Positions 25,429 to 49,551 of a stretch of 64,000 nt of DNA are shown piece by piece (within the stretch, counting starts at the first letter, position 1; each line of letters opens with the position of its first letter). The notes beneath the pieces were generated by a model. That model was not told the origin of the DNA, searched no databases, and worked only from the letters and a program-made list of their open reading frames with translations. The stretch is from Gammaproteobacteria bacterium (lineage in GTDB: Bacteria > Pseudomonadota > Gammaproteobacteria > GRL18). The translations under genes and the position numbers were made by a program. Location of the stretch: the NCBI GenBank assembly GCA_016744375.1, contig JADGEM010000019.1, positions 1 through 64,000 of the forward strand, given 5' to 3'.

Positions 25429-27018
25429 ATGAACATTTCCTTATCCGCTGATATGGCGTGGAACTTTGTTGCACTGAACGATCTTCAGATCCATTATCGT
25501 GGTAATCTCCAGGTAATAGAAACAATTGCTGATGCTGCTGCAGAAAATAATATGCCTTTATTAACAAGTACATTAAGAGAAAGTTATGGCCATTTTGCAT
25601 GTTTAATTGAAAGTGAAGCATTTGTTTTTGCATGTGTTGATAACTGTCGTTCAACACCGATATTTTATTCAGACACTCTCGTGTCAAATTCAGCTGAACT
25701 TATAAGGCACTCCCAGAAACTTACACAAACAGATGGACATGCTTTACTTGATGTTGCTATGGCAGGCTATACCACTGGCGCTGATACTATTTTCAGTGGA
25801 TTAAAACAACTTCAATCAGGTGAGTTTTTGTTTTGGGATAAAAATAAGTCTGCTTTAACCACAGGTTTTTATTATGAGTTTGTACCTGATGAGTTAGTAG
25901 ATAGTGATGATGAAGAGCTTATTTCTCAAATTGCATCATCATTTGACAATGTTATGCAAAGAGTTATAAAACAGGCAGATGGTCGTTTCATATGGGTACC
26001 TCTTAGCGGGGGATTAGACTCACGGTTAATCTTATCAAAGCTGGTTGAATTTGGCTGCCCAAATGTGAAGGCTTTTTCATATGGCCCTGCTGGTAATGAT
26101 GAGGCTCGTTCTGCAAAAAATGTGGCTGAAGTATTGGGTGTGCCATGGTACTTTGTTCCGAGTACCAAGAAAGCTATGCGCAAGCTTTTTGCGTCGCCAA
26201 AGCGCCAGGCTCTTTGGAAGCATGCAAATGGGCTTAACGGAGTACCGAACTTCCAGGATTTCTTGCCATTGAATGAGTTAATGGAGCAGGGAATCATAAA
26301 AAAAGGCGATATCATTATTAATGGGCAATCAGGTGATTTTATTACTGGAGGGCATATTCCTGCACAGCTTTTAAAGCCAGAAGCAACAATTGATGATTTG
26401 TTTTCAGCTATTTTGAAAAAGCATTTTTCATTATGGCATGCACTTAAGACTCCTGAAAATATAGCAATTATTAAGTCACGAGTTTTTGCAAATTTATCAT
26501 TACAGGATAATGATAAAATTTCACCTCAAGAATTAGCATCAGCCTATGAACTCTCAGAATATCAAGAACGACAATCAAAATTTGTTGTGAATGGTCAGAG
26601 AGTCTATGATTTTTTGGGACTTGATTGGTTTTTGCCCCTTTGGGACCCAGAATTTGTTGAAGTGTGGAGAAATATCCCTGCAGAGAGAAAAATTGGACAG
26701 AAGCTGTTTAAAGAGTATTTGCAGATTTACAATTACCAAAATTTATTTGCTAACTTCAAACCATGTCTAGATGGCTGGCCTGGACTTTCTAAACTAGTAT
26801 TACCTTTTGCCCGTTTAATTCGTTGGACTTTCGGGATTGAATGGCGAGATAAATACTTAAAAACGATGACAGTTTTTGGTATGTATAGTTACTTGTATGC
26901 TCCTTATCCATTATGGAAAAATCTTTTAGAGTCACAAAATTATCGAAATCCTATTTCTTTATTTACGCGGACCTGGTTAATTGAAAATAATCTTTCAATA
27001 CCTGATGGGTTAAAATAA
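25429..27018 (+). CDS. Asparagine synthase-like protein lacking the N-terminal nucleophile Cys
   Basis: PP-loop FIWVPLSGGLDSRLILSKL and AsnB-like C-terminal domain; N terminus MNISLSADM... lacks the MCGI start. Confidence 0.78.
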   Translation: MNISLSADMAWNFVALNDLQIHYRGNLQVIETIADAAAENNMPLLTSTLRESYGHFACLIESEAFVFACVDNCRSTPIFYSDTLVSNSAELIRHSQKLTQTDGHALLDVAMAGYTTGADTIFSGLKQLQSGEFLFWDKNKSALTTGFYYEFVPDELVDSDDEELISQIASSFDNVMQRVIKQADGRFIWVPLSGGLDSRLILSKLVEFGCPNVKAFSYGPAGNDEARSAKNVAEVLGVPWYFVPSTKKAMRKLFASPKRQALWKHANGLNGVPNFQDFLPLNELMEQGIIKKGDIIINGQSGDFITGGHIPAQLLKPEATIDDLFSAILKKHFSLWHALKTPENIAIIKSRVFANLSLQDNDKISPQELASAYELSEYQERQSKFVVNGQRVYDFLGLDWFLPLWDPEFVEVWRNIPAERKIGQKLFKEYLQIYNYQNLFANFKPCLDGWPGLSKLVLPFARLIRWTFGIEWRDKYLKTMTVFGMYSYLYAPYPLWKNLLESQNYRNPISLFTRTWLIENNLSIPDGLK

Positions 27019-27037
27019 AAAATAAATCAATTATATT

Positions 27038-28408
27038 ATGTCTAACTTATTTCCTCTTATATCGGTGTACCTGGTTAATTACAATTACGGACGATTTGTC
27101 GAACAGGCAATTGAAAGTGTATTGCAACAAACATTTCAGGACTTTGAATTAATCATCATAGATGATGGTTCGAGTGATAACTCTCGTGAAATTATTGAAC
27201 CCTATGCCAGAAATGAAAAGATCATGACGATCTTTCAGGAAAACAAAGGGCTCAATGCAACAAATAATATAGGTTTAAGAGCGGCAACAGGTAAATATAT
27301 AATGCGTCTTGATGCAGATGATTATCTTGATGCACATGCACTTGAATTATTATCAGGTGTGCTTGAAAAAAATGAAGATGTTGGCCTTGTCTTTCCTGAC
27401 TACTATATGGTTGATATTGATGGTCAGGTACTAGAAGTTATCCAGCGCCACAATTTTGATGAAGTCACTATGATGGACCAGCCGGCACATGGAGCCTGTA
27501 CAATGATCCGGCGTGAATTGCTGGAATCCATGGAAGGTTATGATGAGAGTTTTCGTTGCCAGGATGGTTGGGATTTGTGGTTGCGCTTTATTCAACACCA
27601 CCAGGTAAAAAATGTCAGCTTGCCGCTGTTTTATTATCGACAGCATGGTAACAATCTGACTGCTAATGAAGAACGATTACTTTCAACTCGCTCGGAAATA
27701 ATGCGTAAAGTGGTTCAGTCAAAAAATGAGCAACTCAAATGCATTGCAGTGATACCTGTGAGAGGAAAAACAGCGGATCCTCATTCTCTGGCATTACGAG
27801 AATTAAATGAAAAACCCATACTGGATTGGAGCATAGAGGCAGCATTGAACGCTGATTGTGTCACCGATGTTGTTGTAACCAGCCCAGATGAAAAAATTCT
27901 TGAGCATATAAAGAACACATATGGTGATAAGGTTATGCCCATTGCCCGTGACTGGAAATTTGCTTTACCAAATACCTCAATTGACGATGCAGTGACTGAT
28001 GTCTTTAATCAACTCCCCGAAGACAGGCGAAACTTTGATGCAGTAACAATCTTATTCGTTGAATCCCCCTTTCGTTCATCAAAATACATTGATATGGCTG
28101 CTGATGTGATGCAGCTTTTTTCAGCGGATCGGGTTATTGGTGTGCGGCCAGAAAACAGTAACATGTATCAGCATGATGGTAGTGGTATGCTGCCACTAAA
28201 GCATGACAAGCGATTGCGCTATGAGCGGGATGAGATGTTCAGAGAGGTTGGAAATATGGTGCTGGTTCGCCGGAGACATTTCTTAAGGACAGCAATGGAG
28301 CCTGGAGAAAGAGTCGGCCATGTGGTTTTAAGCAAAAAAGCAGCGCTTTCTCTGGATTCACAATGGGAATGGGATATCGCTGAACTAATGAGTGCAGAAA
28401 AAAAATAA
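27038..28408 (+). CDS. Bifunctional-looking GT2 glycosyltransferase fused to a CMP-sugar cytidylyltransferase-like domain
   Basis: N-terminal GT2 (ISVYLVNYNYGRFVEQAIESVLQQTFQDFELIIIDDGSSD, MRLDADDYL); C-terminal NeuA-like (CIAVIPVRGK...PILDWSIEAALNADCVTDVVVTSPDEKI). Confidence 0.82.
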   Translation: MSNLFPLISVYLVNYNYGRFVEQAIESVLQQTFQDFELIIIDDGSSDNSREIIEPYARNEKIMTIFQENKGLNATNNIGLRAATGKYIMRLDADDYLDAHALELLSGVLEKNEDVGLVFPDYYMVDIDGQVLEVIQRHNFDEVTMMDQPAHGACTMIRRELLESMEGYDESFRCQDGWDLWLRFIQHHQVKNVSLPLFYYRQHGNNLTANEERLLSTRSEIMRKVVQSKNEQLKCIAVIPVRGKTADPHSLALRELNEKPILDWSIEAALNADCVTDVVVTSPDEKILEHIKNTYGDKVMPIARDWKFALPNTSIDDAVTDVFNQLPEDRRNFDAVTILFVESPFRSSKYIDMAADVMQLFSADRVIGVRPENSNMYQHDGSGMLPLKHDKRLRYERDEMFREVGNMVLVRRRHFLRTAMEPGERVGHVVLSKKAALSLDSQWEWDIAELMSAEKK

Positions 28409-30273
28409 TGTGTGGAATAGCAGGCTATGTGACAGATAATTTACTTGATGAAAATATTCTGGAGCAAATGGTTAACTCGCTCTGGCATCGAGGCCCAGAC
28501 AGTATGGGGACATATCGTAATGACCCCTATGCTGGAGGCATGCGACGCCTGAGTATTAATGGTATTGAAACAGGTGACCAGCCTCTTTTTAACCATGATC
28601 GTTCCATTGTTGTTTTCTATAATGGCGAAATTTACAATTCACCACAACTGAGGCGTGAGCTGAAAGCAAAAGGCTATCAGTTTCGAACTGAATCAGATGG
28701 CGAAGTTATCGGCCATCTCTATGAAGAGTATGGAACTAAAGTCTTTGGGCGATTGGATGGCATGTTTGCCATTGCAATCTGGTCTGTCAAAGAGAAAAAA
28801 TTAATTCTGGCACGGGATATACCTGGAGAGAAACCACTTTATTATAGTCAGTTACCCAATAACGGTCTGGTGTTTGGCTCAGAATTGCGAGTCTTCAAAC
28901 AGTTTCCAAAACTTAACCTTTCTCTTGATTATCAGTCACTTTGGGATTTTCCCACATTTCTATGGATACCTGAGCCTTCGACAGTTTATAAAGAAGTCAA
29001 AGCAGTGCCCCGTGGTCACTATTTAACGCTTGATCACACTGGAATAGCCTTGCACCCATTTCCTAATCGTTTTGCTGGGCAGATAGCCGAAGCATCAAGC
29101 TGGCAGGATCTGGTTGATCTCACTCGTCAGACAGTTACTGATTCTGTAAAGAGCAGGCTCTTGTCACAAGTACCGGTTGGAAGTTTTTTAAGTAGCGGCC
29201 TGGACAGCTCAATTGTTGCCACTATTGCCCAGCAAGAATTGGGTAACTTGACAACATTCTCTATTGGTTTTGAAGATGTCGATGATCCCTATCACGGCAA
29301 TGCCGATGAATCGAGTGCCGCACGGGCTTATGCAAAACAACTTGGAACTAAACATCATGAAATTCATGTGAACGGTGATGATTTTTATCAGGCTTTACCC
29401 GAATTCTGTGATTATGGCGATCAACCTTTTGCTGTTTCATCAGGTCTTGGTATTTTATTTGTTGCTAAGGCTGCCCGGGAACAAGGCATAAAAATTCTTC
29501 TTTCCGGTGATGGCGCCGATGAATCCTTCGGCGGCTATTCCTGGTATTCACACCTTAATAGTCCTTATCTATCAGATAGTACTGGCAATGATGAATTACT
29601 CGGGGTGACTTCTTTTCAGAATTTTGGTCTGGATACTGAAATGCGGCTAAGAGCCATGAGTCGATATAAAGCACCGCAGCGAGCCTGGGCATGGCATTAT
29701 TATGCTGCTGAAGAAGAGAAAGCCGCTCTTTTCTCAAGAGAGCCCTTTAGTGACATTATGGGGTCACACCGATATTTTAGTGACTATAATTCGGCTTCCC
29801 AATGGAGTCCTGAGACATATGTTAATCAGGACAAGAATTTTTATCTGCCTAATGAGATGATGCGTAAACTGGATAAAATGACCATGGCCCATTCTGTTGA
29901 AGGGCGGGCACCCTTTGTCGCACCTTCAGTCTTAGCTTTAGCGGAACAATTACGCTATAAACATATGGTCAAAGGTGAAGTTCTCAAACCGGTATTGAGA
30001 GAAGCATTTGCTGGTCTGTTACCAGAAGATATATCTAAACGGCCAAAACATGGTTTTAATGTGCCGATTGATCATTGGCTTAAAGGTAGTTGGTCCGGGC
30101 TTATGGAAGAGACATTTTCCATGGATTCAGCATTATCAAAAATGGGCCTTGTTTCAAAAAATGCAGGGTCCTTAGCTTCCCAAATGCTTGCTGATCCGCA
30201 ACGTTTAAATGGTCATACCCTATTTTGTTATGTCATGCTTAATATGTGGCTTGAACGTAACTGGATCCGATAA
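28408..30273 (+). CDS. Glutamine-hydrolysing asparagine synthase-like amidotransferase
   Basis: MCGIAGYV N-terminal Cys, HRGPDSMGTY, YNGEIYN, SFLSSGLDSSIVATIA, LLSGDGADESFGGY. Confidence 0.93.
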   Translation: MCGIAGYVTDNLLDENILEQMVNSLWHRGPDSMGTYRNDPYAGGMRRLSINGIETGDQPLFNHDRSIVVFYNGEIYNSPQLRRELKAKGYQFRTESDGEVIGHLYEEYGTKVFGRLDGMFAIAIWSVKEKKLILARDIPGEKPLYYSQLPNNGLVFGSELRVFKQFPKLNLSLDYQSLWDFPTFLWIPEPSTVYKEVKAVPRGHYLTLDHTGIALHPFPNRFAGQIAEASSWQDLVDLTRQTVTDSVKSRLLSQVPVGSFLSSGLDSSIVATIAQQELGNLTTFSIGFEDVDDPYHGNADESSAARAYAKQLGTKHHEIHVNGDDFYQALPEFCDYGDQPFAVSSGLGILFVAKAAREQGIKILLSGDGADESFGGYSWYSHLNSPYLSDSTGNDELLGVTSFQNFGLDTEMRLRAMSRYKAPQRAWAWHYYAAEEEKAALFSREPFSDIMGSHRYFSDYNSASQWSPETYVNQDKNFYLPNEMMRKLDKMTMAHSVEGRAPFVAPSVLALAEQLRYKHMVKGEVLKPVLREAFAGLLPEDISKRPKHGFNVPIDHWLKGSWSGLMEETFSMDSALSKMGLVSKNAGSLASQMLADPQRLNGHTLFCYVMLNMWLERNWIR

Positions 30274-30305
30274 ATTTATATACAGAGTAAAAATTAAAGA
30301 GACGA

Positions 30306-31007
30306 ATGATGGAAATAATAGCTGAAATTGGACAAAACCATAATGGCGATATGGGACTTGCAAAGGAATTGATCCAGGTATCTGCGGAGAATGGCGCTGA
30401 TGTGGCTAAATTTCAGGTTTATGATGCCAGGGCCTTATTTCCAAAAGAAGGCAATCCCTGGTATGAATACAATTGTAAAACGGAACTGAGCCGTGAACAA
30501 CTGGCAGAACTGTCAGAGGAATGTGATCGGGTTGGTATTGAATTTATGGCCTCAGTCTTTGATGTAGAACGCATACAATGGCTTGAAGCGCTGAATGTTC
30601 ATCGCTATAAAATTGCATCACGTTCGATCAATGATCAGCCACTGATTCAAGCATTAGTGAGTACTGGAAAACCAATTATTGCATCACTGGGAATGTGGGA
30701 AGGCGAAGATTTTCCTGTAATTGATTTACAACGTGACATTGAATTCTTATATTGTGTATCAAAATATCCGACAGAACTGGAAGACCTTCATTTTTCAGAG
30801 GTTTCATTTGATCGTTATGTGGGGTTTAGTGATCACTCCATTGGCACTGTGGCTGCAATAACTGCTTGCGCGCGTGGTGCAAAAATTTTAGAAAAACATT
30901 TTACTCTGGATAAAAAAATGACTGGTCCTGATCATGAGGGCAGTATGACACCAGATGAATTAGCTGAAATCTCTCATTTCAAAAATCAATTTAAACTGTG
31001 TTTGTAG
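30306..31007 (+). CDS. NeuB-like sialic/nonulosonic acid synthase catalytic domain (short, no SAF domain)
   Basis: IIAEIGQNHNGDMGLAKELIQVSAENGADVAKFQVYDA, YKIASRSINDQPLI, GFSDHSIGTVAAITACARGAKILEKHFTLDKKMTGPDHEGSM; 233 aa ending after the TIM-barrel. Confidence 0.88.
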   Translation: MMEIIAEIGQNHNGDMGLAKELIQVSAENGADVAKFQVYDARALFPKEGNPWYEYNCKTELSREQLAELSEECDRVGIEFMASVFDVERIQWLEALNVHRYKIASRSINDQPLIQALVSTGKPIIASLGMWEGEDFPVIDLQRDIEFLYCVSKYPTELEDLHFSEVSFDRYVGFSDHSIGTVAAITACARGAKILEKHFTLDKKMTGPDHEGSMTPDELAEISHFKNQFKLCL

Positions 31008-31010
31008 ATT

Positions 31011-31751
31011 ATGAAAATTATTGCCACCATTGAAGCCCGAATGGGTTCAACTCGCTTACCAGGAAAAGTTATGCTGCCCCTTGGTGGCCAACCCATGATT
31101 GTACAGCTGGTTGAGCGTATTAAGAGAAGCAAGTTAGTTAATGAGGTGGTTGTAGCAACGACTGTCAACCCAACGGATAGTATCATTATTGAGACTTGTG
31201 TTCGCAATGACATTAAAGTTGTCGCTGGGAGTGAAATGGATATCACCCAGCGCTTGCTTGATGCTGCAGGCTCTGAAAATGCAGATTATGTGGTTCAATT
31301 AACTGGGGATAACCCATTACTTGATGGTCAATTAATTGATTCTGCAGTACAGACTCTAATTGATGGTGATTATGATTATGTGACAAACTATCGAGATAAT
31401 AAATTAACCATTGGTTTTAATGTACGCTGTTTTAAATATGAAGCATTAGAACGAGCCGCTGAGCTTTCAGATGCACCCGGTGATCGGATTCACGGCAGTT
31501 ATTTCATTCATCGCAGCCCAGACTTATTTAATATAGGTCAGGCAGAAGTCCCGGATTCTCTTCAACGAGATGACATTCGACTTACCGTTGATGAGCCAAT
31601 GGATTTTGAAATCGTACGGAGAGTATTTGAAAGTCTCTATCCTCTCAAAAAACACTTTTCAGCGGATGATGTCATAACAATAATTGATCGCTTTCCTGAG
31701 TGGCGAGAAATTAATGTCAATGTAGAACAAAAAGTACCTGGAGAAGGTTAA
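31011..31751 (+). CDS. SpsF/NeuA-like cytidylyltransferase (CTP_transf_3)
   Basis: IIATIEARMGSTRLPGKVMLPLGGQPMIVQLVERIKRSKLVNEVVVATTVNPTDSIIIE. Confidence 0.88.
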   Translation: MKIIATIEARMGSTRLPGKVMLPLGGQPMIVQLVERIKRSKLVNEVVVATTVNPTDSIIIETCVRNDIKVVAGSEMDITQRLLDAAGSENADYVVQLTGDNPLLDGQLIDSAVQTLIDGDYDYVTNYRDNKLTIGFNVRCFKYEALERAAELSDAPGDRIHGSYFIHRSPDLFNIGQAEVPDSLQRDDIRLTVDEPMDFEIVRRVFESLYPLKKHFSADDVITIIDRFPEWREINVNVEQKVPGEG

Positions 31752-31959
31752 CTGCCAAGTATTTTTGTAAGATTAGTCTGTGAATAGAAACTATACAAGT
31801 TCTTAAGCTTGATGATATAATTCTCTAATTACTATCTGAATTGATGAATATTTTGACTAGAAAACCAATAAATAATAATCAGTATTTCACTGCTCTTACA
31901 GAAAAAAAATTCTTTCAGATAAGACTATTATCAGAGATTACGAGGCCGGAAATAAGCTA

Positions 31960-33885
31960 ATGTGTGGAATAGCCGGCTTCATCACCAGTGAACAGTCCTT
32001 ATTCACTGAAGGTTCGATTAGAAATATGCTTGATGTACTCCAGCCTAGAGGGCCAGATGGTACCTCATGGCTTGGAGTCGATACCCGAGGGAAAAAATTC
32101 TGGAAGCAAATCAATCAGACAAATGAAGCACATATGCCGCTTTCTCTGGCAATGGGATGTTGTCGACTGGCAATTAATGATCGTTCCGATCATGGCCTGC
32201 AGCCAATATCGAATGAAGAAAATAATGTCTGGGTTGTACAAAATGGTGAAATCTTCAACTTTATCGAATTACGTGCTGAATTAGAGTCTGCGGGGCACGT
32301 CTTCAAAACAGCCACCGATACAGAAGTGATTGTTCATGGTTATGAACAGTGGGGGTTGGATTGTTTTAATCATTTTAATGGTCAATTTGCCATTGCTATC
32401 TATGATGAAAAAACTAAGCAAACAATTTTAGCACGAGACAGACTGGGAATTACTCCCTTTTTTTATCATGTATCAAGGACTGCGATCAGTTTCGCTTCAG
32501 AAATAAAAGCAATTCTAACACTCCCGGAGATTAAAGTAGAAATAAACCATGAAAGACTGGCAACAATTATAGGCTTGCCCTATAAGCTCCATGGCAAACC
32601 AGGTTCAAGTCTTTTTAAACAAATAGAGGCTGTACGGCCAGGTGAAAGACTGGTTATTGATGCTGATAATAAAATCACTCGTAGTATGTACTGGACATTC
32701 AATCAGTTTCAAGAGCCTTTTGTTGGTAGTTTCAGACAAGCGCGAGGGCAGTTAAAAGAGCTTCTATCGGATGCGGTCAAGATTAGATTAAGAACAGACA
32801 GAAAGCTGTCATTTCTTGTGAGTGGCGGGATTGATTCACCGGCATCAATTGGTATTGCCTCACAGATATACGGCGTGGAGCCTGAAACATTTAGTCTTGA
32901 TCTTCCGGATGCACGTTTTAATGAAAATGATTCCATACAGGAAGTTATTCAATATAATAATGTGACCAGCCACTTTATTCCAGTCACTGCTGAGCGTGTT
33001 AAAGAAATGATACCTCAGGTGCTGGCAGCTTCAGATGAACCTTTGCCAACAGCAAATGGTGTTCTGCATGGCATTATGGCCAGAGAAATTGTTGACCGTG
33101 GTTTCAGAGTGGTTTTGAATGGGGTTGGTGGCGATGAAGGTTTCTTTGGTTACCATGATCACTTCCTCTATTATTTGAGAGATCTGGAATTATCAGGTGC
33201 ACCTAATTTTCAGGATGAGTTGGATGCCTGGCAGCGGACACAACAACGCCCACTTGAGACTTATGAAAAATTCAGGGCATTTCTAGAGAGTGGTGATGCA
33301 AAATACAGTCCTGATTTTCTGGCAAGAAGTGGTGGCTTTGATTATCGTCAATGTTTGAGGGGTGATTATGCCGAGCAATATTTGAAGCCGGCGGCATTAT
33401 TCGATAGTACAGACTACTCCCCTCGAAATAAACAAATTGTTGACATGGGGCGTCTGACATTACCCTATTCATTAAAAATGGATGATGGCTGCTATATGTC
33501 ACAGGCATTGGAAACACGACAGCCATTTCTGGATCATCGACTGATAGAGTTTGGGCTGACCATACCTTCACGTTATAGAATACATAAAGGTATCTCCAAG
33601 TTTTTGCTGCGCAGTGCCGTAAGAAATTGGGTGCCGGACACACGCCGCCGCGATATGCGTAAAGTTGGCTTGAATTTACCCATTGATGAATGGATGAAAG
33701 TTGAGTTAAGGAGCTGGGTCGAACAATTCCTGTGTTCTGCAAACAGGCCCATATTCCAATATGTGGATTTCAACCAGGTGCAAAAAATTGTTGCCAGCCA
33801 TATGGATGGCAAAGCAAATCATAGTATGAAATTGTGGGATCTGATCAATGTTGATAATTGGTTAGATAAATTTTACCCATCTTGA
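31960..33885 (+). CDS. Glutamine-hydrolysing asparagine synthase-like amidotransferase
   Basis: MCGIAGFI, LQPRGPDGTSW, QNGEIFNFIELRAEL, SFLVSGGIDSPASIGIA, LNGVGGDEGFFGYH. Confidence 0.93.
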   Translation: MCGIAGFITSEQSLFTEGSIRNMLDVLQPRGPDGTSWLGVDTRGKKFWKQINQTNEAHMPLSLAMGCCRLAINDRSDHGLQPISNEENNVWVVQNGEIFNFIELRAELESAGHVFKTATDTEVIVHGYEQWGLDCFNHFNGQFAIAIYDEKTKQTILARDRLGITPFFYHVSRTAISFASEIKAILTLPEIKVEINHERLATIIGLPYKLHGKPGSSLFKQIEAVRPGERLVIDADNKITRSMYWTFNQFQEPFVGSFRQARGQLKELLSDAVKIRLRTDRKLSFLVSGGIDSPASIGIASQIYGVEPETFSLDLPDARFNENDSIQEVIQYNNVTSHFIPVTAERVKEMIPQVLAASDEPLPTANGVLHGIMAREIVDRGFRVVLNGVGGDEGFFGYHDHFLYYLRDLELSGAPNFQDELDAWQRTQQRPLETYEKFRAFLESGDAKYSPDFLARSGGFDYRQCLRGDYAEQYLKPAALFDSTDYSPRNKQIVDMGRLTLPYSLKMDDGCYMSQALETRQPFLDHRLIEFGLTIPSRYRIHKGISKFLLRSAVRNWVPDTRRRDMRKVGLNLPIDEWMKVELRSWVEQFLCSANRPIFQYVDFNQVQKIVASHMDGKANHSMKLWDLINVDNWLDKFYPS

Positions 33886-37275: not shown

Positions 37276-38394
37276 ATGAATAAACCAGATATTGTAATTG
37301 TTGTAGAGGATCCAGGTGCGGCTAATTTTATTCAGTACTTTCCTGAAATTTTTTCTAATTTGAATATTAATACCATTATCTTTTCTCTTAATTTAGCTTC
37401 TAAATTTCTTAAAGAACGTAATATAGATTGTATCCCAGTCAATGATTTTGATCTTCTCGATAGAGTTGTAAAACTGCATCCTGATGTGTTGATTATTGGG
37501 ACTTCAGATAATCGAGACTCTCAGGTTTTAGCTCTTATAGACGTTGCAGATAATCATAGTATTCCAACTCTTGGAGTCATAGATTCAATTATGAGTTACC
37601 AGTTTAGATTTAGTGGTCGGACTGATAATGCTTTAGAATATGCTCCAGACTGGTTGTTTGTACCAAATGAAGAAACACACAGGTGTTATGCTAAATTAGG
37701 TTTTCCAGAAGACAAAATATTCATGGTAGGTCATCCAAGGTACATGGATGTTGTGAAAAAAAAAGCAGATTTTGATTCAAGGGGATGTGCCTTTTATCGG
37801 AATAAGTTATTACCCAAAAAATGTTCAAATCGATTTGTAATCTTTTTCGTCGCTGAACCCGAAGTACCCATTGAGAATCAATCAAACATAGTTGGTCAAT
37901 TTGACTTATTTAATAGTGATGAAAGATGTTATGTTGCATTAAATTCATTAGTTAGGGCTTGCCAGAATAAATTTCCAGATGCTTTTATCATCTTAAGGCT
38001 TCACCCTAAAAACAGGCCTTCTGAATTTGAAGAATTTAAATCTTCTATTGGTATTATCAGTAGTGAAAAAGACCCCTTACCATTAGTTTATGCTTCTGAT
38101 CTGGTGGTTGGTATGACATCAAGTTTAATGGTAGAATCCTTGATATTAAATAAGCCTGTAATATCGATCATTTCAAGAGAAAATGATCGAAATGAATTAC
38201 CAGTCTGGACTAATTCACTTATTTTTCAGGCAATGAATCAAGCAGAACTTGAGAATCTTTTAAATAGAGAAATCCATACTTTTTCTTCAAACAGAGTGAG
38301 TAAACTTGACCATATTGTTAATTCAACGTCTATGATTTCTACTGCAATAAAAGAAATTTTATATTCATATGGAGTCGGTATTGAGAATGAATGA
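37276..38394 (+). CDS. Surface-carbohydrate biosynthesis protein (GT-B/CDP-glycerol transferase-like)
   Basis: DKIFMVGHPRYMDV, FIILRLHPKNRP, ASDLVVGMTSSLMVESLILNKPVISI. Confidence 0.6.
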   Translation: MNKPDIVIVVEDPGAANFIQYFPEIFSNLNINTIIFSLNLASKFLKERNIDCIPVNDFDLLDRVVKLHPDVLIIGTSDNRDSQVLALIDVADNHSIPTLGVIDSIMSYQFRFSGRTDNALEYAPDWLFVPNEETHRCYAKLGFPEDKIFMVGHPRYMDVVKKKADFDSRGCAFYRNKLLPKKCSNRFVIFFVAEPEVPIENQSNIVGQFDLFNSDERCYVALNSLVRACQNKFPDAFIILRLHPKNRPSEFEEFKSSIGIISSEKDPLPLVYASDLVVGMTSSLMVESLILNKPVISIISRENDRNELPVWTNSLIFQAMNQAELENLLNREIHTFSSNRVSKLDHIVNSTSMISTAIKEILYSYGVGIENE

Positions 38395-39661
38395 GCTTGC
38401 TTTACTTGGAGGGACCCCAGTGTTGGATAAGTGTCTGGAACCATACAATTCACTTGGTCTTGATGAGGAAAAAGCGGTAGTTGAAGTCGTTAAATCAGGC
38501 TGTTTGTCTGGTTTCTATGGAAGCTGGAGAGATGGTTTTCTTGGTGGGCCGAAAGTACAAGAATTTGAAAATGCATGGAAGCATTACTTTTGTGTGGAAA
38601 ATGTTATTTCTGTAAACTCTGCCACATCAGGTTTGTATGCTGCTATGGGCGCAATTGGCCTAAGTCCTGGAGATGAAGTCATTGTGCCTCCAACCACCAT
38701 GTCTGCCACAGCTATGGCACCCTTAATTTATGGTGGAATACCAGTATTTGCAGATATTGATGAAGATACATTTTGTCTGGGTCTGGAATCAGTTCGTCAG
38801 AATATTACTGAGAAAACAAAGGCTATTATTGTCGTAAATTTATTCGGACAGGCTGGACCTCTTAAGGAATTGCGAGAGCTTTGTGATACGAAAAATATTT
38901 ACTTAATTGAAGATAATGCTCAAGCGCCGTTGGCAAAAGAATATGATGTTTTTTGTGGAACAATAGGTCACATTGGTGTGTTCAGCTTAAATTATCATAA
39001 GCATATTCATACTGGTGAAGGAGGAATGTGCTGCACAAATGATGATAATCTGGCAAGACGATTACGGTTTATCAGAAATCATGCTGAGGCTGTTGTTGAG
39101 AGTGCAGATGAAAAAGATCTGACAAATATGGTTGGTTTTAACTATAGAATGACGGAATTAAGTGCAGCAATTGGTTTAGTGCAGTTAGGAGCAATTGAGC
39201 TGCATGTTAAAAGACGACAACATTTAGCACAACAATTGTCATCAGCGATAACTGATTTGGATGGATTAACTGCGCCATTTGTTAGAGATAATTGTGAGCA
39301 TGCATATTATGATTGGATTATTCGTTATGATGCTGCTCAAGTAGGAGTCAGTAGAAAGTTATTTGTTGATGCACTTAATGCAGAAGGTTTTCCATGTTTT
39401 GAAGGTTATGTAAAACCATTATATCAACTGCCAATCTTTTCTAATAACGTCGCAATAGGCAATAAGGGTTACCCTTTTTCTCTTTCGCAACGAAGCTATC
39501 ATAAAGGATTGTGCCCTGTAGCTGAAAGACTCTATGAAGAAGAAATTATAGGATTTGAAACATGTGCATATGATATTAATTCAGGTGATTTGGGGTTATT
39601 ATCTACGGCTCTTAATAAAGTATTTTCTAACCGTTTTGCTTTAATTAACAAGGAAAAATAA
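38387..39661 (+). CDS. DegT/DnrJ/EryC1/StrS PLP-dependent sugar aminotransferase
   Basis: LALLGGTPV start (as in scyllo-inosose aminotransferase-type members), GGPKVQEFENAWKHYF, LIEDNAQAP, VFSLNYHKHIHTGEGGM with conserved Lys. ATG 38387 preferred. Confidence 0.92.
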   Translation: MNELALLGGTPVLDKCLEPYNSLGLDEEKAVVEVVKSGCLSGFYGSWRDGFLGGPKVQEFENAWKHYFCVENVISVNSATSGLYAAMGAIGLSPGDEVIVPPTTMSATAMAPLIYGGIPVFADIDEDTFCLGLESVRQNITEKTKAIIVVNLFGQAGPLKELRELCDTKNIYLIEDNAQAPLAKEYDVFCGTIGHIGVFSLNYHKHIHTGEGGMCCTNDDNLARRLRFIRNHAEAVVESADEKDLTNMVGFNYRMTELSAAIGLVQLGAIELHVKRRQHLAQQLSSAITDLDGLTAPFVRDNCEHAYYDWIIRYDAAQVGVSRKLFVDALNAEGFPCFEGYVKPLYQLPIFSNNVAIGNKGYPFSLSQRSYHKGLCPVAERLYEEEIIGFETCAYDINSGDLGLLSTALNKVFSNRFALINKEK

Positions 39662-39891: not shown

Positions 39892-40725
39892 ATGAAAACA
39901 TATACAAAAGCTGATTTAATCTTTGCATTGAGGAAACTTGGCATTTGTGAAGGGGATGTTATTTATGTCAGTTGTAGCCTTTTTCAGTTAGGTAGGGTGG
40001 ATGGTATTGCAAATAAGGAACAGCTTTGCCAGATGGTATATGATGCATTGATATCGGTTATTGGTAATGGTGGAACTATTGTTGTTCCAACCTTTACTAC
40101 TTTTTTAGGTAGAAGTGGTGAGGCTTTTTTTTTAGAAACTACCCCAACTGATACGGGTATATTTTCTGAATATATCCGGCAGAGAGAAGATAGTATAAGG
40201 AGTTTGCATCCACTTCACTCTGTTGCAGCAACAGGTGCCAAAAGTAGGGAAATTTGTGAAAAAATTTCTCCAAATAGTTATTCTATTGCTTCACCATCAT
40301 ACCGTCTTTATCAGATTGGAGCAAAGGCGATAACTCTTGGAGCTAAGCGTGCGTATAGTGGTTGGGTTCATCTTTTAGAAGCAATGCATGGTCTTCCATA
40401 TATATACAATAAATTATTGGATATAGATGTTTATGCAAAAGATCAGAAAGTAAAGTGTGATTTTTTTGCACCAGTGAGATATCTTGATTTTAATATTGAG
40501 TATGACATTATACGAGCTGAAAATATTATAAGTGATAGTGGTATTGTCACTTATGAAGGTGTTGGTAGTGGTCAGATTTCATGCATTTTAAGTAAGGATT
40601 ACTTTGAACTTGGTAATAGGCTCTTGATAGAAAACCCTAATTTTTTTCTAAAACAAAAACCAGATTTTCGACATGGAGAAATACCCTTTGATGGTATTAC
40701 CGGACTGCGAGAACCAGATAAATAA
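39892..40725 (+). CDS. AAC(3)/Antibiotic_NAT-fold N-acyltransferase
   Basis: ALRKLGICEGDVIYVSCSLFQLGRVDG, VIGNGGTIVVPTFTTF, TPTDTGIFSEYIRQREDSIRSLHPLHSVAATGAKS. Confidence 0.85.
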   Translation: MKTYTKADLIFALRKLGICEGDVIYVSCSLFQLGRVDGIANKEQLCQMVYDALISVIGNGGTIVVPTFTTFLGRSGEAFFLETTPTDTGIFSEYIRQREDSIRSLHPLHSVAATGAKSREICEKISPNSYSIASPSYRLYQIGAKAITLGAKRAYSGWVHLLEAMHGLPYIYNKLLDIDVYAKDQKVKCDFFAPVRYLDFNIEYDIIRAENIISDSGIVTYEGVGSGQISCILSKDYFELGNRLLIENPNFFLKQKPDFRHGEIPFDGITGLREPDK

Positions 40726-42099: not shown

Positions 42100-42738
42100 A
42101 TGGAGAAGGCTTTGACTGACAACGGTCGATTTATTAATACATGGAAAACTTCCAAAAACATAATGGTAAATAAATATAAAAATTTACTTGCTAAACATGG
42201 TGATGATTTAAAATCTATACAAATGAGTCAAGATGGACAATTATTCCGTTTTAAAAAACTGTTAGAAATTGGTGATCTTAATGGTAAAAGTATCTTAGAT
42301 ATCGGTTGTGGCCGAGCTGATTTGTATGATTATTTAAGACATGAAATTAAAGATTTTAAATATACAGGAATTGATATAGTTCCAGAATTAACTAAGGTGG
42401 CACAATCTAAATACCCTGATGCTAACATTCATTGTAGAGATATATTGGAAGATCCAATTGATGATACATTTGATTACATCTTTATTAGTATGGTTATAAA
42501 TAATAACATTCCAAATATGGAAGTTTTTGCAAAACAGCTCCTTAACGTTGCTTTTAAAATGGCAAATGTTGGATTAGGTTTTAATTTTGTTTCATCATAT
42601 GTTAATCATAAAAATCCGAATGGGATTAACCATGATCCAGTCGAAATGTTTGATTTTTGCTTGAATGAACTATCTAAACAGGTCACTATCTCTCATCACT
42701 ATCAAAGGTGTGATGTCTCAGTGTTTGTTTATAAATAG
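42100..42738 (+). CDS. Class I SAM-dependent methyltransferase
   Basis: GKSILDIGCGRADLYDYLRHEIKDFKYTGIDIVPELTKVAQSKYPDANIHCRDI. Confidence 0.8.
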   Translation: MEKALTDNGRFINTWKTSKNIMVNKYKNLLAKHGDDLKSIQMSQDGQLFRFKKLLEIGDLNGKSILDIGCGRADLYDYLRHEIKDFKYTGIDIVPELTKVAQSKYPDANIHCRDILEDPIDDTFDYIFISMVINNNIPNMEVFAKQLLNVAFKMANVGLGFNFVSSYVNHKNPNGINHDPVEMFDFCLNELSKQVTISHHYQRCDVSVFVYK

Positions 42739-42791
42739 TTTTTTAAAAAAAGTGGATTTCTATATTGTTATGTCAGGTAGGAGATTGTTTA

Positions 42792-43037
42792 ATGAAAAAT
42801 GACATTTGTCAGAAGATTATAAATTATTTTGTAACGTCAGGATTAGGTGAGCCAGGTTGTGACGATGAATTATTTGTTAATGGTTTTTTAGATTCATTTG
42901 GTATGTATGATTTTATTGAGTTTATTGAAAGAGAGTTTAAAATTGTAATGTCACCAGATGCTATTTCTGTGAAAAATTTTAAAACTATTACAATTGTATG
43001 TGAATTAATTGAAACCATTATTAAAGAAGGGAAGTAA
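42792..43037 (+). CDS. Acyl/peptidyl carrier protein
   Basis: DDELFVNGFLDSFGMYDFIEFIEREFKI: phosphopantetheine-type DS motif; ATG 42792 preceded by taggagat RBS. Confidence 0.85.
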   Translation: MKNDICQKIINYFVTSGLGEPGCDDELFVNGFLDSFGMYDFIEFIEREFKIVMSPDAISVKNFKTITIVCELIETIIKEGK

Positions 43038-43064
43038 TATTGGTTATTTTTTGAGGTTGTATAA

Positions 43065-44606
43065 ATGAGTAATGTTGCTAAATTGTTTTTATCAGCTGTT
43101 AAAGAAGTTCCGGAAAAAAAAGCATTAATAATCAATGCTGATCTAAGTTTAAGTTGGTTTGAATTGTATTGTTATGCACAGAATCTTGTTAATAAGTTGA
43201 ATGTGGTTGGTGTTAACAGGAATGATCGTATAGGGATTTATATTCCACACTGTTCAGAGCAAGTTGTTGCTATATTAGCTGTATTTTTGGCTGATTCTGT
43301 TTTTACTATTATTTCATCTACATTAAAAATTGATCAAATTAAACACCAGATTTGTGATTCAGACATTAGGGGCTTGCTTGTTGATGGCGATATTTCAAAT
43401 GAATTAAGCTCACTTTTATCTTATAGACAAATAGATATCATCACAGTTGAAAAAATTACAGGACCACCAACTGTTTTAACCAATGTTATAAATGATGTTA
43501 CAAAAAGTATTCCTACGGATGTGGCTTGCATTATTTATACATCTGGTTCGACTGGTAACCCCAAGGGTATCGTGGTTCCACATCGAACTTTGCTGGATGG
43601 AGCAAGGATTGTGAGTGGCTATTTAGGAATTACTGAAGATGATATCTTACTCAGTATTTTGCCATTAGGCTTTGACTATGGGTTAAATCAGTTACTTTCT
43701 GTTATTTATAAAAAAGCAAAAATCAAAATTTCTGACTCTAATTTGCCAAATGATATATTTTCACAGATACATGAATATGGCATTACAGGATTTGCAGCTG
43801 TTCCTTCAATGTGGGTACATTTCTTTAATAAAAAATACTTTGATAGTAAAAATACTAATTTACTCGATAGTTTGAGATATGTTACCACTGCAGGTGGAAA
43901 ACATTCGGAAGATCTACTTATAAATTTACAGGAGCTTTTTCCACAAACTGAAATAATTATTATGTATGGCCTTACTGAATCATTTAGATCTGCATATTTA
44001 CCTGCTTCTGAGGTATTTAAGCGTATTGGTTCGATTGGTAAAGCTGTCCCTGAAGTTGAATTACTTGTTCTTAATGAAAATGGTCAAGAGTGTAAACCTG
44101 GAGAGAAAGGCGAACTATATCACCGTGGTGCTTTTGTAAATTATGGCTATCTTAATAATGAAGAACTAACTAAAAGACGGTTTATAAAATTAAGAACTGG
44201 TGGTGTAGGTTGTCGTGATGAATATATTGTTCGCTCAGGTGATCTTGTTTCAAAAGATGAAGAAGGTTATATATATTTTCATGAAAGAATCGATACTCAA
44301 ATAAAATGTAGTGGATATCGAATAAGTCCAAACCAGGTAGAAGAAATTGCACTGATGATTCCTGATATTAAATCAGTTGCTGTGGTTGGTGTGGAAGATT
44401 ATGAACTTGGTCAGGTAGTTGGTTTAGTTTATTCAACTTATTCGGGTGAGGAGACAATGAAACAAGAGATGAATCGAGTTTTTAACAAGAATCTACCTTC
44501 TTATGCTGTTCCTCGTCATGTTCATTTCCTCAATGATCTACCTGTTACAGGTCATGGAAAGCTCGATTATCAGAAAATTAAGTCACATGTTTTAGGTCTC
44601 AGTTGA
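43065..44606 (+). CDS. AMP-forming acyl/amino-acid ligase (ANL superfamily)
   Basis: CIIYTSGSTGNPKGIVVPHRTL, LPLGFDYGLNQL, IIMYGLTESF, YIVRSGDLVSKDEEGYIYFHERIDTQIKCSGYRISPNQVEE, GHGKLDYQKIK. Confidence 0.92.
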   Translation: MSNVAKLFLSAVKEVPEKKALIINADLSLSWFELYCYAQNLVNKLNVVGVNRNDRIGIYIPHCSEQVVAILAVFLADSVFTIISSTLKIDQIKHQICDSDIRGLLVDGDISNELSSLLSYRQIDIITVEKITGPPTVLTNVINDVTKSIPTDVACIIYTSGSTGNPKGIVVPHRTLLDGARIVSGYLGITEDDILLSILPLGFDYGLNQLLSVIYKKAKIKISDSNLPNDIFSQIHEYGITGFAAVPSMWVHFFNKKYFDSKNTNLLDSLRYVTTAGGKHSEDLLINLQELFPQTEIIIMYGLTESFRSAYLPASEVFKRIGSIGKAVPEVELLVLNENGQECKPGEKGELYHRGAFVNYGYLNNEELTKRRFIKLRTGGVGCRDEYIVRSGDLVSKDEEGYIYFHERIDTQIKCSGYRISPNQVEEIALMIPDIKSVAVVGVEDYELGQVVGLVYSTYSGEETMKQEMNRVFNKNLPSYAVPRHVHFLNDLPVTGHGKLDYQKIKSHVLGLS

Positions 44607-44640
44607 ATTCTTATCTTATTAAAAATATTATGGTTGATTT

Positions 44641-46584
44641 ATGAATGAGTTTCGCAAAATTCTTTTAGGTAGTATTGGCGGTGATTCTCATTCTGTAGGT
44701 CTTATCATTATTCGAGAAGCGCTCCGTGCAAGTGGTTGGAATGTTCACTTTCTAGGTGTTCAAAATTCACTTGATGATTTTTTCGAAAATGCTGCTGGGA
44801 CTGACTTGGTCATGATTTCTAGTTTAGATGGTCATGCCTGGCATTACTTAAAGGAGTTTCCTGACTATTGTCAAAAATTTAATTTGGGTGATAAATCACC
44901 TCTGTGGTTTTTAGGCGGGAATTTAACCATCGGTGATTCTGTGAGGCATGAAGAACAATTTCGTCAAATGGGTTTTGACGAGGTATTTGTGAAGCCTGTT
45001 GATATTGAAGTTGTTTTAGATTTAGTTAAACGTCGAATGGCTTCACGTAATAATAATTACAGCTCTTCAGATAAAAAAAATCATGAATCACCTTTGCTAA
45101 ACGTGGATGCAGTACCTGCTGGTGAGGTATTGGAAAAATCATTCATACTCAAGGAGAGAAAGATAGTTTTAGAGCATTGGAGTACGGGGTTTGGAGCTCG
45201 CTCACTAGAAGATAATGCGAAGTTTCTTCTTAATAGTCCATCTTTTGTTACTAAGCAAAAAGATGTTTTACTGGGGAATGAGAATGTACTTACACAACCA
45301 CGTTCTGGAGTGGAACTTGTTGATGCTCAAATAGCCTTGTTTAAGTCTTTTGCTCATATAGGCGCGAAAGTTTTATCATTTCAAATTGATTCTCTTACCA
45401 GAAACAATAGTTATGCTCTTGCGAGTGAGGCAATTAACCATGCAAAATCATATGGTGATTGTTCTTTGAATGGTTTTCCGTTAATAAACCACGGAGTTAC
45501 AGAAGTTAGAAGAATTGTAAGAAATGTTGGCGTCCCTATTCAAGTGAGGCATAGTACTCGTGATCCCCGGCTGTTGGCAGAAATATCTTTAGCTGGCGGG
45601 TGTACTGGTTTTGAGGGTGGTTCAATTTGCTATAATATTCCATATTATAAGGACTATAAGCTAACAGATTCTATTCATAATTGGCAGTATGTTGACAGAT
45701 TGGTTGGAATTTACTTTAAAGAATACGGTGTTAGGATTGACAGAGAGTTTTTTGGAGTTTTGACAGGAACGTTAATTCCTCCTTGTTTGGCTATTGTCAC
45801 TTGTGTGTTGGAGTCTGTTTTAGCTGTCCAACAGGGAGTTAAATCTGTTAGCGTTGGCTATGCGGAACAAGGAAATAGAGTACAAGATATTGCCGCAATA
45901 AGGGCACTTGAAACAATTACGCATGATGTTTTGGCCAATCTTGGATACGGTGATGTTCAGGTCAATACAGTCTTTCATCAGTATATGGCTGCTTTTCCTA
46001 CAATACCAAGCAAAGCTGAAAGTTTAATTTTGAATTCAGCAATTACGGGTAAAATGTCAGGTGCTACTCGTATTATGGTAAAAACACCCGTGGAATCATA
46101 CAAAATACCTTCAGTCAAAGATAATCTTGAGGGATTGGCTTTAGTTCAAAAGGGTGTAAATAAAGCTATAATAGATGATATAAAAGAAGTTTATAATAAA
46201 AAGGAATTTGATTTGATATGTGATGAAGTCTATTGCATTCTTGATAAGATAGTCCTTTGTGGCAATGGCAGTATGACAGAGGGTATTGTTAAGGGATTTC
46301 ACCAAGGATATATAGATATTCCTTTTGCTCCAAGTCAATATAATAAAGGTCAGGTGCTTTGTGCTAGAGATACTAAAGGTGCTATACGATTTATTAACAC
46401 TGGTAACATACCATTTGATAAAAATATTAAAGAATTTCACAGACATAAAATGTCTGAGCGGAGAAAAAAAGAGGGATTACTTGCTGAAAGACTAAACTAC
46501 CGGTTAATTGAGAAGGATGTTTTACAAATATCTAGGGGACAATATAGTAGTTGGCCTCTTGATTTGCATAATGATTATGCTTGA
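44641..46584 (+). CDS. Fused adenosylcobalamin-dependent glutamate (methylaspartate) mutase, S (B12-binding) + E (catalytic) domains
   Basis: N-terminal DSHSVG...ISSLDGHA...FLGGNLTIG (DxHxxG / SxL / GG). Remainder GlmE-like: QPRSGVEL, DSLTRNNSY, NGFPLINHGV, VRHSTRDPRLL, GFEGGSICYNIPY, DSIHNWQYVDRL, GVLTGTLIPP. Confidence 0.93.
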   Translation: MNEFRKILLGSIGGDSHSVGLIIIREALRASGWNVHFLGVQNSLDDFFENAAGTDLVMISSLDGHAWHYLKEFPDYCQKFNLGDKSPLWFLGGNLTIGDSVRHEEQFRQMGFDEVFVKPVDIEVVLDLVKRRMASRNNNYSSSDKKNHESPLLNVDAVPAGEVLEKSFILKERKIVLEHWSTGFGARSLEDNAKFLLNSPSFVTKQKDVLLGNENVLTQPRSGVELVDAQIALFKSFAHIGAKVLSFQIDSLTRNNSYALASEAINHAKSYGDCSLNGFPLINHGVTEVRRIVRNVGVPIQVRHSTRDPRLLAEISLAGGCTGFEGGSICYNIPYYKDYKLTDSIHNWQYVDRLVGIYFKEYGVRIDREFFGVLTGTLIPPCLAIVTCVLESVLAVQQGVKSVSVGYAEQGNRVQDIAAIRALETITHDVLANLGYGDVQVNTVFHQYMAAFPTIPSKAESLILNSAITGKMSGATRIMVKTPVESYKIPSVKDNLEGLALVQKGVNKAIIDDIKEVYNKKEFDLICDEVYCILDKIVLCGNGSMTEGIVKGFHQGYIDIPFAPSQYNKGQVLCARDTKGAIRFINTGNIPFDKNIKEFHRHKMSERRKKEGLLAERLNYRLIEKDVLQISRGQYSSWPLDLHNDYA

Positions 46585-46606: not shown

Positions 46607-47308
46607 GTGACCACAATAGTAATTATTCCAGCCAGGGGAGGCTCTAAGGGCGTTCCAGATAAAAATATACGCAATATTGCCGGCCAGCCATTGATAGCCT
46701 GGAGTATTCAGCAAGCTCTGGCTACATCGGGTGTTGATCAGGTTATTGTATCGACTGACAGTGCTGATATTGCACAAATTGCCAAAGACTATGGTGCTTC
46801 TGTGCCATCATTAAGACCTGCATATCTTGCCGAGGATAATACACCAACAGAGCCTGTGCTGGAGTATATTGTTAATGAATTGAAAGCTGACGATATTCAG
46901 ATAGATACGGTTATTTTGCTGCAGCCAACCTCACCATTAAGATTAGCTCACTCAATCCAGAATGCTTTGAACTTATTTCATCAATCAGACGCTGATTCTC
47001 TCTTGAGTGTTGTTGAATCCCATGCTTTTTTCTGGGAATTACCCGGTGAGGCAGATGGTCTTCCAGTGGCAGATTATGACTATCAAAATCGACCCAGGAG
47101 GCAAGATATTAAGCAAGCTGATAAACGCTATAGAGAAAATGGCTCGATCTATATAACACGCTCAGAAATACTGGTAAAAAATCATAACCGTCTCGGTGGA
47201 ACTATGAAAGCTTATATTATGGATGATATTGAAGGTTATGAAATTGATACTCTGACGGATTTTAAGGTAGTAGAAACACTCATGCATTCTGTAGGGATGG
47301 CTAAATGA
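46607..47308 (+). CDS. neuA: CMP-nonulosonic acid cytidylyltransferase (NeuA-like)
   Basis: IVIIPARGGSKGVPDKNIRNIAGQPLIAWSIQQAL; GTG start. Confidence 0.92.
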   Translation: MTTIVIIPARGGSKGVPDKNIRNIAGQPLIAWSIQQALATSGVDQVIVSTDSADIAQIAKDYGASVPSLRPAYLAEDNTPTEPVLEYIVNELKADDIQIDTVILLQPTSPLRLAHSIQNALNLFHQSDADSLLSVVESHAFFWELPGEADGLPVADYDYQNRPRRQDIKQADKRYRENGSIYITRSEILVKNHNRLGGTMKAYIMDDIEGYEIDTLTDFKVVETLMHSVGMAK

Positions 47309-49551
47309 TAATTGAGCGTAATATTGATAAATTTTGCATTTTTGCTGAAGACAGTATTCTGAGTGCATTGAGAAAGATCAGTGATAATAAATCACGGGTT
47401 GTTTTTTCGGTCACGGAGCATAGACGTCTTGAAGGTATTGTCACTGATGGCGATATCAGACGCTGGTTACTTGATTCATCTGATTTTGATTTAAATCAGC
47501 CTGTGAAGACGATTTCCAATAGTCATTTTACCTGGGCATCCATTAAAAAAAGTGCTGAAGAAATATCAGCACTCTTTTCTTCTCGGATTGAGTATGTACC
47601 ACTGCTGGATGAACAACAGCATTTAATTGGCTTTGCACGTTTTGCATTGTCTGAAGTGGTTATTGATGAACATATGATAGGTAAAAATCATCCAACGTTT
47701 GTGATTGCAGAAATTGGGAATAATCACAATGGCAGTGTTGAGCAGGCTAAAAAATTAGTGGATGAAGCGGTAAAAAGTGGAGCTGATTGTGCTAAATTTC
47801 AAATGCGTGATATGGAAAGCCTTTATGCCAATTCAGGCGAGGCCAATGATGCCTCAGAAGATTTGGGGTCTCAATATACTTTAGATTTACTTTCACGCTT
47901 TAATCTTGATATTCAATCATTGTACGATGTCTTTGATTATTGCAAGCAACATGGAATTACACCGCTGTGTACCCCATGGGATATGCCCAGCTTATCAGCT
48001 TTAGAACAATATGGTATGCCTGCCTATAAAATTGCATCGGCTGATTTAACAAATTTTGAAATGCTCGAAGCTCTGGCCAGGACGGGTAAGCCACTTATTT
48101 TATCGACAGGAATGTCTAGTGAAGAAGAGATCCTTCATGCTGTCGAGTTGCTTCGTCGGTATGGTGCAAGCTTTGTGCTTCTACACTGTAATTCAACTTA
48201 TCCAGCCCCTTTTAAAGATGTTAATCTGAGTTATATTTCCAGACTAAATGAAATTCATGATGGTCTGATTGGGTATTCCGGGCATGAGCGAGGCTATAAT
48301 ATTGCTGTCTCTGCAGTTTCACTGGGGGCCTGTGTCATTGAAAAGCATTTTACCTTAGATCGTGAAATGGAAGGTAATGATCACAAGGTCAGTTTACTGC
48401 CGGATGAATTTACTTTAATGGTTCAGGCCATTAGAGAAGTGGAAGAGGCCATGGGAACCTCTGCCAGCAGAATACTGAGCCAGGGTGAATTGATGAATCG
48501 GGAGATTCTGGCAAAAAGTCTGGTCGCATCGGAAACAATTACCGAAGGCAGTGTTATTGGTTATGACAATATTGTCATAAAGAGTCCGGGGCGTGGTTTA
48601 CAGCCCAATAGACGAGAAGAGCTGGTTGGAAAAATTGCCCGTAGAGATATAAAGAGTGGTGACTTTTTTTATCCCAGTGATCTGGGTGAAGGGATTGTTG
48701 AGCCAAGACCTTATCAATTTAAGCGCCCTTGGGGAATACCGGTGCGTTTCCATGATTTCTCATCACTCTGCTCCATCAGTAGTCCTGATTTGCTGGAATT
48801 TCATTTGAGTTATAAAGATCTTGAACTTGAACCAGCTGATTTTTTTACTGATGAAATGAATTGTGAGTTGGTGGTACATGCTCCGGAATTATTCACGGGC
48901 GATCATATTCTTGATCTGGTGTCGGATGATGATAACTATGTTGATGAGTCAGTCAGGAATTTGCAAAAGACCATTGATGCTACCCGAGCACTAAAAAAAT
49001 GGTTTCCAAAAACACAGCGACCGGTATTAATTGTGAACGTGGGTGGTTTTAGTAACAATAGCTTTCTGCCTAAAGAACAACGCCAGAACTTGTATCAAAA
49101 ACTGATCGAGACATTAACTCGACTGGATCAGACTGGGATTGAAATTATTCCACAAACGATGCCGCCGTATCCATGGCATTTTGGTGGGCAGCAATATCAT
49201 AACCTATTTGTTGATCCTGATGAAATTGATCAATTTTGTCATAAAACAGGCTATCGGGTTTGTTTTGATGTGTCACACTCAGCATTAGCATGCAATCATA
49301 CGGGGATTGATTTAGGTGAATGTATTCGTCTGGTAGGACCTCATACTGCTCATCTTCATATAGTGGATGCTAAAGGTGTTGATGGTGAAGGGCTACAGAT
49401 TGGTGATGGTGATATTGATTTTGCCAGTATGGCTAAAGCTTTATCTCAGTATTCTCCTAACTCGGGATTTATTCCTGAAATCTGGCAGGGGCACAAAGAT
49501 AGTGGAAGTGGTTTTTGGTGGGCGCTTGAGCGGCTTGAGACGTGGTTTTAG
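47305..49551 (+). CDS. neuB: Multidomain NeuB: CBS pair + NeuB synthase + SAF + xylose-isomerase-like TIM barrel
   Basis: CBS-like N terminus (SILSALRKISDNKSRVVFSVTEHRRLEGIVTDGDIRRWLL); FVIAEIGNNHNGSVEQAKKLVDEAVKSGADCAKFQM; SAF (LAKSLVASETITEGSVIGYDNIVIKSPGRGLQP); C-terminal FDVSHSALACNHTGIDL..HLHIVDAKGVDGEGLQIGDGDIDF..IPEIWQGH. Confidence 0.88.
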   Translation: MIIERNIDKFCIFAEDSILSALRKISDNKSRVVFSVTEHRRLEGIVTDGDIRRWLLDSSDFDLNQPVKTISNSHFTWASIKKSAEEISALFSSRIEYVPLLDEQQHLIGFARFALSEVVIDEHMIGKNHPTFVIAEIGNNHNGSVEQAKKLVDEAVKSGADCAKFQMRDMESLYANSGEANDASEDLGSQYTLDLLSRFNLDIQSLYDVFDYCKQHGITPLCTPWDMPSLSALEQYGMPAYKIASADLTNFEMLEALARTGKPLILSTGMSSEEEILHAVELLRRYGASFVLLHCNSTYPAPFKDVNLSYISRLNEIHDGLIGYSGHERGYNIAVSAVSLGACVIEKHFTLDREMEGNDHKVSLLPDEFTLMVQAIREVEEAMGTSASRILSQGELMNREILAKSLVASETITEGSVIGYDNIVIKSPGRGLQPNRREELVGKIARRDIKSGDFFYPSDLGEGIVEPRPYQFKRPWGIPVRFHDFSSLCSISSPDLLEFHLSYKDLELEPADFFTDEMNCELVVHAPELFTGDHILDLVSDDDNYVDESVRNLQKTIDATRALKKWFPKTQRPVLIVNVGGFSNNSFLPKEQRQNLYQKLIETLTRLDQTGIEIIPQTMPPYPWHFGGQQYHNLFVDPDEIDQFCHKTGYRVCFDVSHSALACNHTGIDLGECIRLVGPHTAHLHIVDAKGVDGEGLQIGDGDIDFASMAKALSQYSPNSGFIPEIWQGHKDSGSGFWWALERLETWF

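Follow-up and report, generated by a model that had tools for sequence, protein, structure and literature searches.

In Vibrio cholerae O1, tetronate acylates perosamine, and a carrier protein (ACP), a ligase and a transferase together decorate the O-antigen amino sugar; in the flagellin of Clostridium botulinum, legionaminic acid bears an N-methylglutamyl amide. Genes for an ACP and an AMP-dependent synthetase are also carried by the flagellin glycosylation islands of Aeromonas (PMC7874193) and Enterobacteriaceae (PMC4875605). In vicenistatin biosynthesis, the glutamate mutase VinH/VinI forms 3-methylaspartate, VinN loads it onto VinL, and decarboxylation by VinO follows (PMC11284099).

Organization of the locus

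The window, that is, the whole 64-kb stretch of DNA analysed, starts with LPS core genes (two heptosyltransferases and a Kdo/WaaP-like kinase), which are followed by rml, GDP-mannose and glycosyltransferase genes, three asparagine-synthase-like genes, a pair of NeuB genes, and cytidylyltransferase genes. Judging from this gene content, the locus is an LPS/O-antigen cluster. The GC content falls to 32% near 40-44 kb of the window; low GC is common for clusters of the LPS/O-antigen type. The three asparagine-synthase-like genes lie within the glycan cluster at 25429-33885 and possibly amidate sugar carboxyls.

Three neighbouring orfs, all intact and co-directional on the + strand, were predicted to encode a stand-alone acyl/aminoacyl carrier protein (ACP, 42792-43037), an AMP-forming aminoacyl-ACP ligase (43065-44606) and a fused adenosylcobalamin-dependent glutamate mutase with GlmS and GlmE in one chain (44641-46584). 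That these three genes adjoin in the same direction, with glycan genes on either side, had been claimed in a sequence-only reading of this DNA, and both points were seen again in the orfs and in the window annotation. The module had no near DNA match in E. coli genomes, and the mutase had no match among phages.

Glutamate mutase

The mutase matched TIGR01503 with 465.9 bits (cut-off 390.1) and PF06368 with an E-value of 9e-144. Its N-terminus is the S (B12-binding) domain, which was matched by PF02310 and by MutS models, the S-subunit models scoring below their cut-offs, and the B12 motif DxHxxG is present (D15, H17 and G20). In an alignment to the solved Clostridium cochlearium enzyme, R221, R254 and R303 corresponded to GlmE chain positions 66, 100 and 149, and E325, Y331, Y335, K481 and E485 to chain positions 171, 177, 181, 326 and 330, which in this enzyme family are the substrate-binding arginines (three-arginine claw) and the catalytic residues. 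The arginine claw, the E/Y/K residues and the DxHxxG motif were identical in 23 of 23 fused mutases. These active-site residues support the prediction that the protein is a real glutamate mutase.

The window mutase was the sole MutE match in the 4.29-Mb genome, and the mutase is rare in the class (5 of 369 genomes). A BtuR-type cobalamin adenosyltransferase is encoded in the genome, and no MutL reactivase was found there. A genome search for methylaspartate ammonia-lyase gave a single partial match of 28 bits in a 432-aa frame, which is probably an enolase, since the same lyase model also matches in E. coli and B. subtilis. Catabolic glutamate fermentation via methylaspartate was rejected because neither MutL nor a convincing methylaspartate lyase was found. 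The idea of a glycan-specific mutase clade was likewise dropped, as it received no support from the mutase tree, which was poorly resolved and drawn from a small sample.

Ligase and carrier protein

The ligase matched PF00501 and PF13193, and its best NCBIfam model was TIGR03098 (450.8 bits, under the cut-off of 592.35). The profile of the ligase had its best matches among amino-acid adenylation domains, and a motif alignment to such domains placed an Asp at the amino-group position (PheA 235) and an Arg near position 330. These features support its assignment as a putative ligase of the amino-acid-activating type. A fatty-acyl ligase was disfavoured, given that amino-acid adenylation domains rank first for the ligase profile and that the motif alignment places an Asp at the amino-group site. 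The AlphaFold model had a mean pLDDT of 66 with a poor active site, and the fold search confirmed the superfamily only.

In a tree of 21 ligases, the six that are linked to a mutase formed one clade (97/98), sister to the exosortase-associated TIGR03098 ligases, these supports, like the E-values, being drawn from small samples. The sequences FDYG and YGLTESFRS, from which the Asp and the Arg of the motif alignment come, were invariant in all six. No member of this clade without a mutase was found in about 500 genomes searched (299, 48, 148 and 24 genomes, in overlapping sets), and every match above the clade gap came from a genome with a mutase adjoining the ligase. The pocket Arg was considered as a hallmark of mutase-linked ligases and rejected, because TIGR03098 ligases have it too. 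As FDYG is also shared with them, the motifs fit an acidic amino acid and would not be diagnostic for 3-methylaspartate, that is, they are no proof of 3-methylaspartate over aspartate.

It is rather unlikely that the substrate of the ligase is a different acid (aspartate, glutamate or a short acid), with the mutase acting separately to supply or consume glutamate. The same ligase motifs do occur in TIGR03098 ligases without a mutase, and VinN accepts L-Asp weakly (PMC11284099); however, the ligase clade and the mutase are direct neighbours in six genomes with strict co-occurrence, and catabolic partner genes for the mutase were not found in the genome.

The TIGR03098-type ligases of four loci (L027, L056, L060 and L062), which have pocket motifs in common with the mutase-linked clade, adjoin orfs resembling DAP/ornithine decarboxylases (in L027, 11112-12398 on the - strand). 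The exosortase-associated pair may produce an acidic amino acid that is decarboxylated while bound to an ACP.

The predicted ACP had no match in Pfam and only a weak carrier-protein match in NCBIfam (AmcB, 7e-7). It was called a carrier on the basis of this match, of the phosphopantetheine site LDSF, in which DS is retained in five homologues, and of the equivalent position of the homologues elsewhere, which lie upstream of the ligase in L041, L034, L039 and L037 and beside it in G379. An alternative TTG start at 42765 would extend the protein by 9 residues.

Distribution of the module

The fused mutase was found at 20 loci in a scan of 85,462 species genomes, and one more was obtained from a plasmid search; many of these loci are bordered by NRPS/PKS genes. 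A search of genomes for the triad near glycan genes, which the sequence-only reading had suggested, recovered the ACP-ligase-mutase unit in five other lineages (46-53% identity to the window), with nonulosonic-acid genes close by in several. The triad lies together in L034 (Nitrospirota), L037 (Rhodospirillaceae; the same record region as G380), L039 (an alphaproteobacterial MAG) and L041 (Arenicellaceae), whose ligases are 46-51% identical to that of the window; the fifth genome, G379, belongs to another class, came from a separate search and has a ligase of 52% identity. The gene order ACP, ligase, AAC(3)-like, methyltransferase, mutase is common to L037, L039 and L041, and the order in L034 is ACP, PLP-family enzyme, ligase, mutase. 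A NeuB gene lies near the mutase at five of the six loci, at a distance of 0.7 kb in the window and 6-24 kb in L034, L037, L039 and L041; in G379 the NeuB genes sit on other contigs and none is near the mutase. The mutase is rare, yet a ligase of the same clade and an ACP are found beside it in five other genomes, whose taxonomic distance ranges from a different order to a different phylum, and the adjacency is therefore not due to chance. The ligase clade was absent from 23 other genomes of the same order, which makes the module a variable element of this species' cluster.

A DUF4910/DUF2172 peptidase-like gene accompanies the cassette in L037 (5375-6643), L039 (4515-5807) and L041 (13202-14536), the products being 42-47% identical; it is located upstream of the ACP gene in L037 and L039 and on the opposite side and strand in L041, and no homologue was found in the window. 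Fused mutases without a clade ligase nearby occur in L033, L040, L042 and L046 (Pyrinomonadaceae, Acidobacteriota, Marinobacter and Photobacterium). Gammaproteobacterial operons L002, L003 and L005 contain GlmE and a MutL-like gene, with a separate GlmS in L002 and L003, and probably represent a different use of the mutase.

In G379, a TIGR03099-like PLP decarboxylase gene adjoins the mutase and ligase genes, and the product there would more likely be 3-aminoisobutyrate. That the ACP-bound 3-methylaspartate of the window is likewise decarboxylated in the manner of vicenistatin, so that the glycan receives a 3-aminoisobutyryl group, would also agree with the DAP-type decarboxylases that, by eye, the orfs following the TIGR03098 ligases of L056, L060 and L062 resemble. 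We consider this unlikely, however, since no homologue of the G379 decarboxylase was found in the 64-kb window, none was recognised near the mutase of L037 or L041, and distant matches only were seen in L039 (26%) and L052 (23%). With such a homologue missing from the window, the residue is expected to retain both of its carboxyl groups. It is very improbable that the module yields a small natural product instead of a glycan substituent, as the fused mutases of Roseibium, Streptomyces, Dictyobacter and Acidobacteriota, which adjoin NRPS/PKS genes, would suggest, because none of the window proteins scanned was an NRPS or PKS and the module is flanked by LPS core, rml, GDP-mannose, NeuB and glycosyltransferase genes.

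Candidate transfer and acceptor genes

Upstream of the triad, all on the + strand, are genes predicted to encode a DegT/PseC-like sugar aminotransferase (38369-39661; PF01041, E 7e-79; best NCBIfam PseC, below cut-off), which may supply the acceptor amine, an AAC(3)-like N-acyltransferase (39892-40725; PF02522, E 3e-27, 96.1 bits versus a cut-off of 25) and a SAM-dependent methyltransferase (42100-42738; PF13649, E 1e-10). A member of the AAC(3) family is situated between the ligase and mutase genes of L037, L039 and L041, and the window protein is the best candidate for carrying the ACP-bound aminoacyl group over to the amine of a sugar. This assignment is weak, since the window copy shares only 20-26% identity with the cassette copies and has HPLHS where these have DPNFS or DGNFS, the motif being HPxHS. 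The methyltransferase, which possibly methylates the aminoacyl group on N or O, belongs to another subfamily than the cassette methyltransferases of L034, L037, L039 and L041. Neither gene showed clear orthology to those of the other cassettes.

Downstream, also on the + strand, are genes for a PseF-like CMP-nonulosonate cytidylyltransferase (46607-47308; PF02348; TIGR03584 at 156 bits, below the cut-off of 206) and a nonulosonic acid synthase (47305-49551; PF03102, E 1e-84). The latter is an unusual CBS-NeuB-SAF-AP_endonuclease-2 (AP_endonuc_2) fusion of 748 aa. The second NeuB homologue (30306-31007) is short (233 aa), apparently without a C-terminal SAF, and adjoins an SpsF-like gene.

Proposed pathway

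Our preferred reading, which we consider somewhat more probable than its opposite, is that the module supplies a surface glycan with 3-methylaspartate, which it both synthesises and activates. First, the fused B12 mutase would convert L-glutamate to (2S,3S)-3-methylaspartate, as its family and full active-site conservation suggest. Second, the ligase, to judge from its clade, pocket residues and strict linkage, would adenylate 3-methylaspartate and load it onto the stand-alone ACP. Third, and this is the weakest step, an acyltransferase would pass the 3-methylaspartyl group on to an O-antigen sugar at one of its amino groups; this enzyme is possibly the AAC(3)-like protein encoded from 39892. 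To judge from the DegT, NeuB and PseF-like genes close by, the acceptor is probably a nonulosonic acid or its amino-sugar precursor, and the methyltransferase may methylate the 3-methylaspartyl group. Against the pathway are the decarboxylase and the lack of a nearby NeuB gene in G379, and the fact that related fused mutases serve NRPS clusters. The overall interpretation given in the sequence-only reading is thus upheld in part, for the mutase by its active site, the ligase by its type and the ACP by its stand-alone nature, and the module is wider than had been described, including the AAC(3)-like and methyltransferase genes.

The recurrence of the same gene set in sugar clusters of unrelated bacteria indicates a probably undescribed route of surface-sugar decoration. 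The chances appear even that it is a mobile cross-phylum cassette in which a B12 radical mutase provides carrier-activated 3-methylaspartate, or its N-methyl form, for nonulosonic acids, a substituent class that is apparently unreported. If this is true, B12 radical chemistry builds a surface sugar and ties LPS structure to B12 supply, and a new amino-acid substituent is predicted that can be searched for by mass spectrometry. It would further suggest an acidic amino acid as the substrate of the exosortase-associated ligase/decarboxylase pair, so far poorly understood, and so make an older question testable.

Comparison with known systems

Open-library full text yielded no paper that places a glutamate mutase in the biosynthesis of a surface glycan, and none on methylaspartate with nonulosonic acid; within the same text, the earlier statement that no described O-antigen pathway of such logic was known still holds. 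Papers retrieved on methylaspartate with polysaccharide and O-antigen, and on glutamate mutase and flagellin, were judged unrelated from their titles and abstracts. Provisionally, both the activation chemistry and ACP-dependent glycan acylation are known, and their combination was not found described.

The tetronate system of V. cholerae O1 differs from the window in using a hydroxy acid and having no mutase. The C. botulinum flagellin resembles the proposed product in that an acidic amino acid is amide-linked to a nonulosonic acid, the amino acid being glutamate rather than methylaspartate. The flagellin islands (PMC7874193, PMC4875605) similarly have an ACP and an AMP-forming synthetase in a glycan cluster, thought to modify sugars, but possess fatty-acid-type reductases and LuxC/LuxE, with no B12 mutase reported. 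The exosortase A-associated TIGR03098/TIGR03099 pair, of which the surface setting is given by the family name, contains ligases of the sister clade with the same pocket motifs; it lacks a glutamate mutase, and its ligases are 33-37% identical, in contrast to 46-52% within the mutase-linked clade. The vicenistatin parallel drawn in the earlier reading stands in part: a VinO-type decarboxylase, present in one relative (G379), and a PKS were not seen in the window, the mutase is fused in one chain, the context is that of a glycan cluster, and the ligase is no nearer to VinN than to other adenylation domains, whereas a glutamate mutase, a stand-alone adenylation enzyme and a stand-alone ACP occur together in the window as they do in that pathway.
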